Assembly: GCA_003251535.1 (NCBI GenBank)
Contig: QKFD01000118.1
Span: forward strand, 1-64,000
Direction: 5' to 3'
Source of the DNA: Chromatiales bacterium
GTDB taxonomy: Bacteria; Pseudomonadota; Gammaproteobacteria; Thiohalomonadales; Thiohalomonadaceae
DNA: 64,000 nt
Of the stretch, positions 7,018 to 49,042 are shown one piece after another. Positions within the stretch are counted from its first letter, which is position 1. Every line of letters begins with the position of its first letter. A program made the position numbers and the translations under genes. The notes beneath the pieces were generated by a model that saw only the letters and a program-made list of their open reading frames with translations, searched no databases and was not told where the DNA came from.

Positions 7018-7953
7018 CTACGGCTGCTGGTGGTAGTAGTCGTACCCTTCCAACATATCGCGGGTGAAACTCCACGCCTCGTTGTAGGAGAGGCCGCTCT
7101 CGTCCGGAATGATGATCCTGACGTAGAGCTGGGCGGGATCGACCGCCTTCAGCGCCCCTAGGCGCCGCTCCAGAGTCGCCCTCTCTACGACCTGGAAATC
7201 CGCCTTGCCCGGCTCTCGCAGGCTGATACGGTTGCTCCCCGCCACCTTCTCATAACGTACCTCCACCACCGTCTTGCCGGCGGTGGTACGGGCCGGCCGC
7301 ACCAGTTTGTCGTACTTCACCTTGAGGTCGTCATACTCCCCCTGGAGTGCCGCCATCTGAACCGCCCGCTCCCCCTCCGCCACCCGCATCGTCGCCAGCG
7401 CCTCCTGGGCGGTGCGCGCAGTGCTGCGGCTCTGCTCCAGCTCGGCCCGGGTGGCAGCGAGCTGACTCTCCTGTTCGGTACTCACCCGTTGCAAGGTGGC
7501 CAAGTTGTCTCCCAACCGTTGCAGCTGCGCATCCAATAGCTCCCCCTGCCGCCGGGCGGTTTGCAGCTCCCCGCTCAGCTGCGCCTTTGCGCTGTCGAGT
7601 TGCGAGATGTGCAGGTCGCGCTCGGCGATGAGTTGCGCCTTGCTCCGCCCCTCCTCTTCCGACCGCAATAGCTCCATGCGGCTGTGGGTGAGCTGCTCCT
7701 CCAAGCGGGCCAGCCGCTCCTCCAGCGACTCATTCACCTCCGAGGTGGCGCGGGCGAGATCGGAGGCGGCCCGCTCCGCATCCATGGTGGAGCGCAGATC
7801 GGCGATCAGCTCCCAGTTGCGCAACACCAACACGGTGCTGGCGATCATGAAGATCATCACCACCACCATCATCATGTCGGTGAAGGAGGGCCAAAAGCTG
7901 TCAGAGGCAGAGCCGGAGTCGCTCGCCTCCCGTAGATCAACGAAACCCTCCAT
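7018..7953 (-). CDS. ExbD/MotB-like inner-membrane protein with long coiled coil
   Basis: A 311-residue protein with one N-terminal helix. The motif SFWPSFTDMMMVVVMIFMI at about 19-37 puts an aspartate (D26) at the start of the helix, the position of the proton-carrying Asp in ExbD/TolR/MotB. Residues 55-225 are a long, Glu/Ala/Gln/Leu-rich coiled coil. The last 90 residues (VVEVRYEKVAGSN, then LYVRIIIPDESGLSYNEAW) look like the small ExbD-type periplasmic fold; there is no OmpA-type peptidoglycan-binding domain. It begins 3 bp after the MotA/ExbB-like gene, so the two form a translationally linked pair. It is neither a normal flagellar stator nor a normal Ton system. The partner engaged by the coil is unknown. 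Confidence 0.65.
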   Translation of the reverse strand: MEGFVDLREASDSGSASDSFWPSFTDMMMVVVMIFMIASTVLVLRNWELIADLRSTMDAERAASDLARATSEVNESLEERLARLEEQLTHSRMELLRSEEEGRSKAQLIAERDLHISQLDSAKAQLSGELQTARRQGELLDAQLQRLGDNLATLQRVSTEQESQLAATRAELEQSRSTARTAQEALATMRVAEGERAVQMAALQGEYDDLKVKYDKLVRPARTTAGKTVVEVRYEKVAGSNRISLREPGKADFQVVERATLERRLGALKAVDPAQLYVRIIIPDESGLSYNEAWSFTRDMLEGYDYYHQQP

Positions 7954-7956
7954 CGC

Positions 7957-8880
7957 TCACCCCTCCTCCGGCAGGCGGAAGCCATCCCGCAGTAACCGGC
8001 GGATGGCGCTGATATCCTCCGCCACCGGGCCAAATTGCCGCTCCGCCCCCGCCACCACCTCCCGCAGGGCGCGGGTGGTGTCCAGCAGCTCGCGCTGGGC
8101 CGCCTGCATCGCCTCGCTCACCTGGCGCAGATTGCGCGCCAAACCGGCCACGTCGTGTAGCAGATGGTCGGCGGTGTGACTGTACTTTGGCATCAGGTAG
8201 AGGGCGGTCACCTGTTCCACCCCGGAGAGCAGGTGGGTCTTGGCATCCAGCACCTTGAGGTAGAAGTAACCGAACACGAAGTAGCAGACGATGGCGGTCA
8301 AGGTGGTATTGAGGGCGGTGGACATGCCGTGGATCACCAGCTGCATGTTGGCCAGCTCCTGCCCCGCCTCCAGTAGATTGGCCGCCCCGAGCAGGGCAAT
8401 GGAGAGCGAGACGATGGTGCCAAAGACCCCCGTCAGGATGAGCACGCTATTGATGAACTTGAGCAGCCCAATGCGGGTGCTCTCTTTTGCCACCAGGGTC
8501 GCCGCGAGGGCGTTGTGATTAATGGGGGCGTTCTGCTTGGCCAGTGTCTGCACCGTATGCAGCCGCCGCTGGATGAGGGAGCGAGGATCTACGTTCTCCA
8601 GGGTGCTGTAGAGATCGCCGTCGAGGGCCTTGATGAAGCGGCCCAGCGCCCGCTCCTCCCGCATGTAGCGCACGAGGTTGACGACGACATCCCCCATCCC
8701 CAGCAGAAACAGCGCGACGATGGCGCCGTTGATGATGTAGCCGGTGGTGGTGAGCTGATCGGTGAAGTAAAAGCGGAGGATGAACGGCATGGCGTAGGCC
8801 AGCCCCACCCCTAGTAGCAGCAACGCCACGACTAGGCGCAGCAGCACCCCGCGGCTGAAATCGGTCTTAAAGTCGATCAT
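7957..8880 (-). CDS. MotA/TolQ/ExbB-type proton channel protein
   Basis: A 307-residue membrane protein with four hydrophobic helices: about 12-35, 47-70, and the pair containing VLILTGVFGTIVSLSIAL and GMSTALNTTLTAIVCYFVFG. The last two match the MotA/TolQ/ExbB core that lines the ion path. A cytoplasmic loop of about 70 residues separates helices 2 and 3, and the C-terminal 90 residues are helical and soluble. ATG at 8880 has GGGGAG just upstream; a TTG at 8892 is an alternative. It is the first gene of a pair with the ExbD-like gene. Such channel pairs power energy-transducing machines (flagellar stators, TonB systems, Zorya-like systems); which machine this one drives is not shown by the neighbours. 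Confidence 0.75.
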   Translation of the reverse strand: MIDFKTDFSRGVLLRLVVALLLLGVGLAYAMPFILRFYFTDQLTTTGYIINGAIVALFLLGMGDVVVNLVRYMREERALGRFIKALDGDLYSTLENVDPRSLIQRRLHTVQTLAKQNAPINHNALAATLVAKESTRIGLLKFINSVLILTGVFGTIVSLSIALLGAANLLEAGQELANMQLVIHGMSTALNTTLTAIVCYFVFGYFYLKVLDAKTHLLSGVEQVTALYLMPKYSHTADHLLHDVAGLARNLRQVSEAMQAAQRELLDTTRALREVVAGAERQFGPVAEDISAIRRLLRDGFRLPEEG

Positions 8881-9121
8881 ATGGCTCCCCAACGGTGCGG
8901 TTGTACGCCGTGCGCCACCCTACCGCGGCTGCTTGTCATGGTGTGTGTTATCGGCTGGCGACGGTGACCGGGTAGTTGCGCGACCGGCCCGCTAGACGCC
9001 CCGGCCATCATAGGCGAGGCGGGTTGACGCCACCAACGCCGTTGGACAGCACACAACCCCAGGTTGCACTGGTGGGGAGAGAATTTTTGTTGTGGTGGGC
9101 CCCCCACCCGGATTGAAGGCA

Positions 9122-9158: not shown

Positions 9159-9737
9159 TCACCCCATGGTCAACGCACTGGGCAGCGCGGCCAACACCTC
9201 GGCCAGGCTCTCTCCCCCTTGCAATACCCGCAGCAGGGCGGGATCCGGCTCCACCAGATTGACGCCGTAGGTCACCTCACCGGGACCACTGGCGGGATAG
9301 AGCAGGGCATCGCTCTCCACGGCAAAGGCGGGTAGTGGATAACCGCCCCGCGCATCGAGCCGCCGCCAGCCATAGCCGGGGAGCCAGACGGTCACTAAGC
9401 CGTGGAGGAAAAACCGCCCCCTCTCCGTCGCCAACCGCTGGTAGTCGAGACCAGCGGGATGACCGGCGGCCCGCAGCAGTGCGGCCAACAGATGACTCTT
9501 GGCGTAACAGAGGCCATGCCCCTGCTGGAGTACCTCGCTGGCCCGCCACGGTACTGTGCTGGCGGCGCTATCACAGGAGTGGGCTACGCTGTCGCGCACC
9601 CAGTGGAACAGCCGTGCGGCGTGGGCAACTGGCGTCATCCCCTCGCGCCGTAGGGCAGCGGCCTGGGCCTGGATCGCCGGGTGGTGACAGTCGATGGCCA
9701 CACCGGCGGTGAGGTAGGCGTTGAGTGACTCATCCAT
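9159..9737 (-). CDS. Transglutaminase-like cysteine peptidase domain protein
   Basis: A 192-residue cytosolic protein with the papain-like transglutaminase fold. The triad is visible: C77 in QQGHGLCYAKSHLL, H112 in RFFLHGLVTVWLP and D128 in GWRRLDARG. There is no signal peptide. In bacteria this fold serves as a peptidase or amidase more often than as a crosslinker. I start at the ATG at 9737, preceded by GGGAGGGG; the longer frame from 9821 is unsupported. The start overlaps the end of the 49-residue ORF by 8 bases, so the two are probably translationally coupled and regulated together by the leader RNA upstream. The substrate is unknown; the small neighbour peptide is an obvious candidate to test. 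Confidence 0.75.
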   Translation of the reverse strand: MDESLNAYLTAGVAIDCHHPAIQAQAAALRREGMTPVAHAARLFHWVRDSVAHSCDSAASTVPWRASEVLQQGHGLCYAKSHLLAALLRAAGHPAGLDYQRLATERGRFFLHGLVTVWLPGYGWRRLDARGGYPLPAFAVESDALLYPASGPGEVTYGVNLVEPDPALLRVLQGGESLAEVLAALPSALTMG

Positions 9738-9879
9738 CGCACCCCTCCCGCGTACAGAGTTCCGCGACGTGCGACCACCAGCGACCGACAGCGCTACCCA
9801 GGGAGGAGATCTGCTGGCCACCGCGGGCGGTGGAGGTGAAGTGGGCGATGGCGGCGTGGTGGGGACGAATGCGTTTCAT
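9730..9879 (-). CDS. 49-residue ORF coupled to the transglutaminase-like gene
   Basis: This short ORF (MKRIRPHHAAIAHFTS at the start, ending LCTREGCDG) has a near-perfect Shine-Dalgarno, AAGGAGG, 6 nt before its ATG. Its stop overlaps the start of the peptidase gene by 8 bases, and a strong terminator hairpin sits 32 bases before it. That arrangement is hard to explain by chance. The peptide is basic at the N terminus, has a GG at 20-21, a WW pair at 34-35 and two cysteines near the C terminus. I recognise no family. It could be a peptide substrate or precursor processed by the peptidase, a regulatory peptide, or a small structural partner. Confidence 0.55.
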   Translation of the reverse strand: MKRIRPHHAAIAHFTSTARGGQQISSLGSAVGRWWSHVAELCTREGCDG

Positions 9880-10076
9880 AGTGGGCCTCCTTAGGCCAGA
9901 TCGACAGGACAAAAAAAAGCCGCTGATGGGGTCTCCATCAGCGGCCTGGTGTGACATCTTCCGTTTAGGCAGGGTCTAGCGCTTGCGCCTACTCCTGCCC
10001 ACACACACCCAGGCCGCTGAGGGGCATTTACCCAGCGGTCGGCGAGTCATCACAACGGGTGCGTGGTTATTCATGG
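9880..10076 (-). promoter_or_regulatory. Structured leader RNA with competing antiterminator and terminator
   Basis: Read on the minus strand, four segments can pair in alternative ways. Segment 1 (10033-10038, CCGCTG) can pair with segment 2 (within 10014-10019). Segment 2 extended (10009-10020) is perfectly complementary over 12 bases to segment 3 (9938-9949). Segment 3 is also the 5' arm of the intrinsic terminator (9935-9945 with 9919-9929). A separate hairpin (9994-9999 with 9968-9973, with an inner GCGC/GCGC stem) lies between segments 2 and 3. This is the 1:2, 2:3, 3:4 architecture of an attenuator or riboswitch. No known class was recognised. A 32-codon ORF (10074-9976) overlaps segments 1 and 2 but would start almost at the predicted 5' end. 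Confidence 0.55.
9911..9945 (-). terminator. Intrinsic terminator in the leader of the small-ORF/peptidase unit
   Basis: GCCGCTGATGG (minus strand, 9945-9935) pairs perfectly with CCATCAGCGGC (9929-9919) around a 5-base loop, and eight A bases at 9911-9918 give a U8 tract on the minus-strand transcript. It ends 31 bases before the ATG at 9879, so it lies inside the leader rather than behind a gene. Confidence 0.85.
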
Positions 10077-10082
10077 GGTCCG

Positions 10083-10111
10083 ATTGTGCCGCCTCCCCCG
10101 GAAGAGGTCAA
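10083..10111 (-). promoter_or_regulatory. Sigma-70-type promoter for the leader/small-ORF/peptidase unit
   Basis: On the minus strand TTGACC (10111-10106) and CACAAT (10088-10083) are exactly 17 bp apart. Transcription would start near 10076, giving a leader of about 197 bases before the ATG at 9879. The rest of the intergenic stretch up to 10342 shows no gene. Confidence 0.5.
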
Positions 10112-10966: not shown

Positions 10967-12451
10967 TCAAGAGGAGCAGCTGATCACCAGGCGTCGCCCC
11001 CACTCCGGTGGCGGGGCGGCGTAGCGCTCGGCCCCCACCTGCTCGGTGAATGGATCCCGGAGTAGCTGGGCCAGCCGCTTGAGTTCGCTAAAGTCGTGCC
11101 GCTCCGCCTGTTCAATGGCCAGCTGGGCGAGATAGTTGCGCAGCACATAGCGGGGATTGACCCGCTGCATCTGCGCCGCCCGTGCCGCCCCGTCTCTCCC
11201 TTCGGACTGTAAACGGGCGGCATAGCGCTGGGCCCAGGCGTCGAAGCCGGCCCCATCGCGGAACCAGGCCCGTAGGGTGGCGTTGGCGGCCCCTGCGGTG
11301 GGATCGAAGGTGGCGAGGTCGCGGAACAGGCCGCTGTAGTCCACCCCCTCTGCCGCCAGCAGCTCAAGTAGCTCCACCGCCAACCCCGCATCCCCCTCTC
11401 GCTGCTCCTGGAGGCCCAGCTTGGCCCCCATGCCACGACCGTAGGCGCGGCTAAAGTGGTGGTCGTACTCCCCCAAAATGGCGTTGGCCTGCTCCGCCGC
11501 CGCCTCCGGTTCCCCCTCCAGGAGCGGGAGTAGCGCCTGGGCAAAACGACTCAGGTTCCATAGACCGATATAGGGCTGGCGCTGGAAGGCATAGCGCCCG
11601 CTGTGATCGGAGTGGTTGCAGATGAAGCCGGGATCAAAGGCGTCGAGAAAGCCAAAGGGGCCGTAGTCGAGGGTGAGGCCGAGCAGAGACATATTGTCGG
11701 TATTCATCACCCCATGGGCAAAACCGACCAGCTGCCACTGCGCCATCAGATGCGCGGTACGCTCCACCACCTCCCGCAGGAGCCCGCTATAGCGTTCAGC
11801 GGTCCCTAACAGATGGGGGAAGTGGTGACCGATGGCGTAGTCGGCCAACCGCTCCAGGGCGCTGAAATCGGCCTGGTAGTAGAACAGCTCGAACGAGCCG
11901 AAGCGCAGGTGGCTTGGGGCCACCCGCAGCAGCATTGCCCCCCGCTCCATGCGCTCCCGCGCCACCTTTTCATCACTGGCGATGAGGCAGAGGGCACGGG
12001 TGGTGGGGATACCGAGGCCATACATCGCCTCGCCACAGAGATATTCGCGGATGGAGGAGCGCAGCACGGCGCGCCCATCCCCCATGCGCGAGTAAGGGGT
12101 CTCCCCCGCCCCCTTGAGGTGGAGGTCCCAGCGCTCACCCCGCCCATTGACCACCTCTCCCAGCAGCAGCGCCCGCCCATCCCCCAGCTGCGGGACGTAG
12201 TGGCCAAACTGGTGACCGGAGTAGGCCATGGCGACCGGATCGCTGCCGGGCAACGGCCGTTCGCCACCCAAGTAGGCGACAAATTCCGGCCGTTCCGCCT
12301 CGCGCGGGTCGAGATCCAGCAGCTCCGCCACCTCGGCATTGAAGCAGGCGAGGCGCGGGTGTTTGAGTGGTAGTGGGGCCACCCGGCGGTGGAAGGCCTC
12401 TGGCAGCCGGGCGTAGCTATTATCAAATTGGAGCGATTCTAAGGTGCGCAT
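10967..12451 (-). CDS. selO: SelO/YdiU-family protein AMPylase
   Basis: A 494-residue pseudokinase of the SelO (YdiU) family, which transfers AMP from ATP to Ser/Thr/Tyr residues of proteins involved in redox homeostasis. The sequence has the family hallmarks: FDNSYARLPEAFHRRVAP at the N terminus, AMAYSGHQFGHYVPQLGDGRA, LHLKGAGETPYSRMGDGRAVLRSS, GFAHGVMNTDNMSLLG with the metal-binding DN-type loop, and a C-terminal SCSS, the place where eukaryotic homologues have selenocysteine. Full length. ATG at 12451. It is a single-gene unit here; the gene upstream (a GGDEF protein, 160 bp away) is on the same strand but unrelated. Confidence 0.92.
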   Translation of the reverse strand: MRTLESLQFDNSYARLPEAFHRRVAPLPLKHPRLACFNAEVAELLDLDPREAERPEFVAYLGGERPLPGSDPVAMAYSGHQFGHYVPQLGDGRALLLGEVVNGRGERWDLHLKGAGETPYSRMGDGRAVLRSSIREYLCGEAMYGLGIPTTRALCLIASDEKVARERMERGAMLLRVAPSHLRFGSFELFYYQADFSALERLADYAIGHHFPHLLGTAERYSGLLREVVERTAHLMAQWQLVGFAHGVMNTDNMSLLGLTLDYGPFGFLDAFDPGFICNHSDHSGRYAFQRQPYIGLWNLSRFAQALLPLLEGEPEAAAEQANAILGEYDHHFSRAYGRGMGAKLGLQEQREGDAGLAVELLELLAAEGVDYSGLFRDLATFDPTAGAANATLRAWFRDGAGFDAWAQRYAARLQSEGRDGAARAAQMQRVNPRYVLRNYLAQLAIEQAERHDFSELKRLAQLLRDPFTEQVGAERYAAPPPEWGRRLVISCSS

Positions 12452-48939: not shown

Positions 48940-49030
48940 GCAAGCCTACGTCTATGGGCTGGCCGTGTGGGGAGCCTTCGGGCTCGCCGGTACTTGTCCC
49001 GGTACGCCAACCCGCACGGTTCCGCCCGCC
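48940..49030 (+). ncRNA. C4/CI-type antisense immunity RNA (P4-like)
   Basis: A compact structured RNA. An outer 9-bp stem pairs CCGTGTGGG (48963-48971) with CCCGCACGG (49011-49019). Inside is GAGCC-TTCG-GGCTC (48972-48985), a UUCG-capped hairpin, and then a second stem around GTAC/GTAC. The unpaired strand ACGCCAACCC (seqB) matches upstream seqA and downstream seqC. This is the layout of the C4 RNA of phages P1/P7 and the CI RNA of P4. Ends are approximate; processing sites cannot be seen. Confidence 0.7.
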
Positions 49031-49032
49031 CT

Positions 49033-49042
49033 GATTGGCGTC
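49033..49042 (+). promoter_or_regulatory. seqC-like second copy of the antisense target
   Basis: GATTGGCGTC repeats the core of seqA (48874-48883). Its TTGGCGT can pair with ACGCCAA of the C4-like RNA. Placement downstream of the RNA matches seqC in P4. Confidence 0.5.

Follow-up and report, generated by a model that had tools for sequence, protein, structure and literature searches.

The 64-kb stretch of DNA analysed here (64,000 nt, hereafter the window) carries on its minus strand an RNA leader ahead of a transglutaminase-like gene, and the locus raises the question of what kind of switch this leader is and what it senses. An earlier note on the locus had proposed an attenuator or riboswitch of no known class. 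Our analysis indicates that the leader is very probably a ribosome-mediated transcription attenuator, and that it belongs, as a divergent member, to a family that has apparently not been described before.

We inspected the signals of the leader, all of which lie on the minus strand. The promoter scan located a −35 hexamer TTGACC (10111-10106), a 17-nt spacer, and a −10 hexamer CACAAT (10088-10083), in agreement with the spacing given in the note; two promoter-like sites occur in 2 kb versus 0.4 expected. The intrinsic terminator (9911-9947) is formed by segments 3 and 4, with the predicted stem at 9947-9917, an energy of −23.9 kcal/mol, and the U8 tract noted earlier at 9918-9911. Segment 3 (CACACCAGGCCGCTGATGG, 9935-9953) has two alternative partners, segment 2 and, for its part from 9947 on, segment 4. 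Segment 2 (TCAGCGGCCTGGGTGTG, 10004-10020) is the 5′ strand of the antiterminator. The 12-base complementarity of 10020-10009 with 9949-9938 given in the note is real, and it extends further than stated there, forming the core of a helix of 16 bp in which one G is bulged (TCAGCGGCCTGGgTGTG / CACACCAGGCCGCTGA). The duplex of segments 2 and 3 has an energy of about −33.6 to −33.7 kcal/mol and a z score of −6.2. In the predicted fold, a central hairpin (9965-10000), which holds the stop codon of a leader ORF, separates these two segments, and the inner part of a hairpin between segments 1 and 2 (10014-10038; 10038-10031 with 10022-10014) sequesters segment 2. The latter hairpin includes the third segment (10038-10033) that had been suggested to block the antiterminator. 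The whole leader folds more strongly than its shuffles (z −3.5; core, z −4.2). As for a competing upstream pairing, the terminator in the window was the strongest both in a set of 23 (z −5.05) and in a set of 105 (z −4.66).

The earlier note had overlooked a short ORF within the leader. This ORF (MNNHAPVVMTRRPLGKCPSAAWVCVGRSRRKR, 9976-10074) has 32 codons, is shared by 37 relatives, and starts with an ATG 8 nt past the −10 hexamer without a Shine-Dalgarno sequence. Because of this short distance, the transcript is expected to begin at the ATG or a few bases away, and the ORF should be effectively leaderless. Segment 2 occupies codons 19-24, the 12 bases first recognized being exactly codons 19-22, and the stop codon is ca. 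25 nt beyond it. The candidate stall codons are Arg11-Arg12 (CGC CGA, 10039-10044), as judged from their position and from the RR statistics in relatives. Hence, the putative control codons of the window are two adjacent Arg codons, whereas most relatives have a single Trp and no run of one codon. A Trp does occur in the window ORF, at codon 22 inside segment 2, and codons 16-21, where relatives have theirs, are free of it. Pfam/NCBIfam searches with the leader peptides gave no significant match.

Relatives of the leader were sought by several routes. A DNA similarity search in 144 genomes found one true relative (L013, in G001), which precedes an EamA/DMT transporter; nearly all remaining matches were chance similarities in coding sequence, three of which (L009, L017, and L027) were inspected by eye. 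Searches of phage and plasmid collections with the leader found none. The note had recommended orthologous transglutaminase genes as a route to conserved leaders, which proved largely unproductive, as ca. 20 of 24 orthologues lie in another context and most of them are without a leader. When the family was searched for the terminator core common to these leaders and then scanned for leaderless ORFs, six more loci emerged, mostly before the same transporter, including a second leader in the genome of the window (G000:C55). Finally, the class-wide pattern TTGACN{30,32}ATGN{112,138}AAGGCCGC was run on 369 genomes and gave 99 matches versus 30 for the reversed control pattern, some of the 99 being recurrent matches in coding sequence. 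Among 36 loci fetched after this search, 27 have a complete leader, and 26 of the 27 have the DMT transporter downstream. Two candidates were discarded: L088 (G010) is a gene-end terminator, and an Acinetobacter EamA homologue (30% identity) adjoins another gene upstream with too little space for such a leader.

In total, 38 loci from 21 families of the class Gammaproteobacteria share the architecture of promoter, leaderless ORF of 27-35 codons, and AGGCCGC...GCGGCC-U terminator. The gene 3′ of the leader encodes one EamA/DMT transporter subfamily in ca. 32 of the 38 loci, and mostly an argD-like aminotransferase and/or a transglutaminase in the others. The transporter matches TIGR00950 and PF00892, is exporter-like, and has the sequence MSVPAAY.GIILIWSTTPLAIKWS. 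At the transporter loci, the ribosome-binding site of the downstream gene often lies directly behind the U tract. In G005 and G053 (L029, L030, and L129), the leader is followed by a second, argD-like class III aminotransferase and directly thereafter by a transglutaminase-like gene; in G019 (L142), the argD-like gene stands alone behind the leader. Transporter leaders are also present in G005 and G318. The window leader itself has the transglutaminase-like gene downstream instead of a DMT transporter. The relatives retain 30-32 nt between TTGAC and ATG, a distance that the class-wide pattern itself imposed, so the leaderless spacing is an unbiased observation only in the five leaders that were detected independently of this pattern (the window, G001, G005, G053, and G318). 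In these five, the ATG is 6-8 nt past the −10 hexamer.

The membership of the window leader was assessed with a covariance model, R1, built from 28 transporter leaders with the window sequence excluded. The window leader was matched by R1 from end to end (36.6 bits, E 1.9e-7), and the second-best score in the 64 kb was 11.3 bits. The argD/transglutaminase leaders scored 53-68 bits, and AGGCCGC terminators outside leaders at most 29.8 bits, with partial matches mostly to the last 36 positions. The window leader is thus the weakest yet full-length member of the family by R1. We call it a divergent relative rather than a typical member because Trp is absent from its codons 16-21; this copy has Arg-Arg instead and the strongest helix between segments 2 and 3. 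A further complete leader, L200 (G253:C11), reached 67 bits and has no transporter directly downstream, and is possibly an orphaned copy.

We then asked of the relatives what is constrained at the RNA level. The note had named covariation of the pairing between segments 2 and 3 as a check, and in the relatives this pairing is indeed conserved and coevolves. In a swap test, segment 2 of each leader was paired with its own segment 3 or with those of other leaders. With the window left out, the 31 non-redundant leaders formed stronger pairs in the native combination of arms than in exchanged ones (p<5e-5), 25 of 31 beating the median, while the control region of nt 1-50 gave p=0.20. The variable 5-mer of segment 3 has its exact complement within nt 55-92 in 15 of the 31 leaders versus 5.2 expected by swapping. 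Taken alone, the 2:3 helix is weak in several relatives. The RNA of the leader ORF forms a hairpin of its own in which segment 2 is sequestered, with a mean z of −1.5 versus codon shuffles. The segment-2 motif is present in 37 of 38 leaders versus 17 in shuffles. Its occurrences are spread over the three reading frames (15/14/8), and the constraint on it therefore acts on the RNA.

The ORF is also constrained at the codon level. All 38 loci have the short ORF. TGG at nt 46-65 occurs 30, 12, and 1 times in frames 0, 1, and 2, and CG 83, 10, and 40 times (38 leaders). Trp is found within codons 16-21 in 29 of 38 leaders versus 7.8 in residue shuffles (maximum 16). Arg makes up 15% of leader residues, and RR within codons 9-18 occurs in 21 of 38 leaders versus 6.0 in shuffles. 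Segment 2 starts mostly at codons 22-24, which is 12-15 nt past the Trp codon. Ribosome footprints place the expected front edge of a Trp-stalled ribosome at about the start of segment 2. The leaders before argD-like and transglutaminase genes (G005, G019, G053, and the window) have no Trp at the usual position, and Arg codons occur in them at an equivalent distance. These four examples are suggestive of a stall codon that changes together with the downstream gene.

The genes behind the window leader were also inspected. The 49-residue ORF, which the note had placed after the leader, spans 9730-9879 (minus strand), has a Shine-Dalgarno sequence GGAGG at 9886-9890, contains Arg33-Trp34-Trp35, and ends with a stop that overlaps the next start codon (GATGGATGA). 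It has no significant family match in Pfam/NCBIfam, and it was rejected as the leader ORF for its position downstream of the terminator and overlapping the transglutaminase start. The presumed regulated gene (9159-9737, minus strand) encodes a transglutaminase-like protein of 192 aa (PF01841, E 4e-15), whose C77, H112, and D128 are invariant in six homologues. The G318 orthologue has a matching order upstream, with TATACT, 6 nt, the ATG of a 34-codon ORF, a terminator, and a 36-codon ORF that joins the transglutaminase gene by the overlap GATGGCTGA. This 36-codon ORF (in L130 2013-2345) contains RRLHEW, which resembles the leader motif. We conjecture that it and the 49-codon ORF with its RWW might each act as a second control ORF, working at the level of translation through coupling to the start of the transglutaminase gene. 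Elsewhere in the window, two adjoining 311-aa proteins (7018-8892, minus strand) resemble a MotA/ExbB-like and MotB-like motor pair, with only weak PADLOC matches (ZorA, E 0.001; ZorB, E 1e-6), and a 494-aa protein (10967-12451, minus strand) presumably resembles selenoprotein O / YdiU. A C4 antisense RNA (RF01695, 59.8 bits), an immunity RNA of phage P1/P7 type, is located at 48950-49033 on the plus strand and suggests a prophage.

For the switch we propose the following mechanism. Transcription would begin at the leader ATG or a few bases away, and the leader ORF would be translated as a leaderless message. When the leader is freely translated or untranslated, the 1:2 hairpin would form, or re-form behind the ribosome, and segment 2 would be sequestered. 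Segment 3 would then pair with segment 4, and RNA polymerase would terminate. A stall within the first half of the ORF would instead place the ribosome over segment 1 and leave segment 2 free, so that the 2:3 helix forms and no terminator arises. The stall site is predicted to be Arg11-Arg12 in the window and the single Trp at codons 17-20 in the transporter leaders. In the window, antitermination would allow transcription of the 49-codon ORF and the transglutaminase gene. In trpL, a ribosome at the leader stop masks segment 2. Here the stop lies ca. 25 nt beyond segment 2, a distance at which a ribosome on the stop codon would leave that segment unmasked, and termination under free translation would thus rely on re-forming of the 1:2 hairpin. 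The signal is most likely a limited supply of charged tRNA, namely tRNA for Trp at the transporter leaders and for Arg at the argD/transglutaminase leaders including that of the window.

A different signal is conceivable with the same RNA switch. The leader could encode an arrest peptide, whose nascent chain, with RRxxxW in the tunnel, stalls the ribosome in response to a ligand or drug exported by the DMT transporter. As the RNA switch is unchanged, this explanation rivals ours on the signal, not on attenuation itself. The placement of RR 4-5 residues ahead of Trp, the hydrophobic residue at −1, the single Trp instead of a run, and the exporter-like nature of the downstream protein are consistent with it, as are the RRLHEW of the 36-codon ORF in G318 and the RWW of the 49-codon ORF. 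However, residues other than R and W vary widely, and Trp is mostly absent from the argD/transglutaminase leaders and absent from two transporter leaders (G014 and G257). For an RRxxxW leader without a single-codon run, nascent-chain arrest fits about as well as tRNA limitation; as an account of the signal in general, we consider arrest a credible contender, short of probable. A broader version, which we regard as unlikely, takes the leaderless ORF as a general sensor of translation, since an ORF at the 5′ end of the transcript would have a special (70S-type) route of initiation. Arrest at RRxxxW would additionally report drugs or metabolites exported by the DMT transporter, and copies of the switch would have been transferred, with changes in the stall codons, to genes for argD-like and transglutaminase proteins. 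The result would be a family of arrest-peptide attenuators, rewired and spread over Gammaproteobacteria.

Attenuation by a translating ribosome has also to be weighed against explanations in which translation plays no part. The strong fold of the leader (z −3.5) and its mutually exclusive pairings would suit a metabolite- or protein-binding attenuator of riboswitch type. The 28 aligned leaders, however, have no aptamer-like core that is conserved in addition to the promoter, the ATG, segment 2, and the terminator; Rfam contains no matching family; and TGG and CGN are constrained in frame. What is conserved is a short ORF with a Trp codon in frame and a ribosome-spacing geometry, so of the alternative posed by the note the attenuator stands, with its conserved and coevolving antiterminator, and the riboswitch is very improbable. 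Just as improbable, in our judgement, is a terminated leader that acts as a small RNA in its own right, or that is simply ended by the terminator, with the downstream gene unregulated: a promoter and a strong terminator do bound a transcript of ca. 170 nt, but in ca. 32 loci the unit immediately precedes a member of one gene family, and its antiterminator coevolves. Lastly, short ORFs and helices abound in GC-rich DNA, and ORF, terminator, and complementarity might be unrelated. The relatives already refute this reading, whose residual probability is negligible. The promoter-ATG-terminator pattern matches once in the window versus 0.03 matches expected by chance, the class-wide search gave 99 real versus 30 control hits, the transporter stands behind nearly all leaders checked, and the window leader was recovered by an independent model.

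A ribosome-mediated attenuator thus remains the preferred reading, and it describes an apparently unannotated regulatory element that occurs in ca. 20 gammaproteobacterial families before a conserved uncharacterised transporter. Its conserved candidate stall codons (Trp and Arg) hint directly at the signals to which the transporter and the linked argD-like and transglutaminase genes react. Being built on leaderless ORFs, such an attenuator family would be unusual, and within it one switch appears to have been transferred to other genes with a change of control codons.

We compared the leader with known systems. Like Rfam leader and riboswitch families, it is a cis-regulatory 5′ RNA with a terminator; unlike them, it matches no Rfam 15 family above the curated threshold, and the literature searched, mostly outside subscription journals, holds no description of it, which bears out the note on the lack of a known class. 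The same literature gave no paper connecting EamA/DMT/DUF6 proteins with attenuation or a leader peptide, and no arginine leader peptide for argD. A genome-wide attenuator survey treats ABC-transporter leaders, and no DMT/RhaT-type case was found in its main text (PMC2965389). Drug-inducible leader-peptide attenuators of efflux genes are described in Gram-positives for bmrCD and mef/mel-msrD (PMC4191407, PMC4335068, PMC10314930). They have in common with our leaders a short ORF and a terminator before a transporter or resistance gene, but differ in pump types and peptides; ours combine Gammaproteobacteria, a DMT transporter, and RRxxxW, and are described here by computation. With attenuators of the trpL/hisL/pheL type, the leaders share a short ORF, the 1:2, 2:3, and 3:4 helices, an intrinsic terminator, and a candidate control codon 12-15 nt ahead of segment 2. 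In contrast to that type, the ORF here is leaderless, lacks a Shine-Dalgarno sequence, and extends past segment 2, one Trp with upstream Arg takes the place of a codon run, and the genes encode a DMT transporter, an argD-like enzyme, or a transglutaminase. TnaC, the leader ORF of a transporter-containing operon, has a single important Trp and works by arrest at the stop codon and Rho termination. Our leaders resemble it in the short ORF, the single Trp, and the transporter downstream, and are distinguished from it by an intrinsic terminator and an internal Trp.
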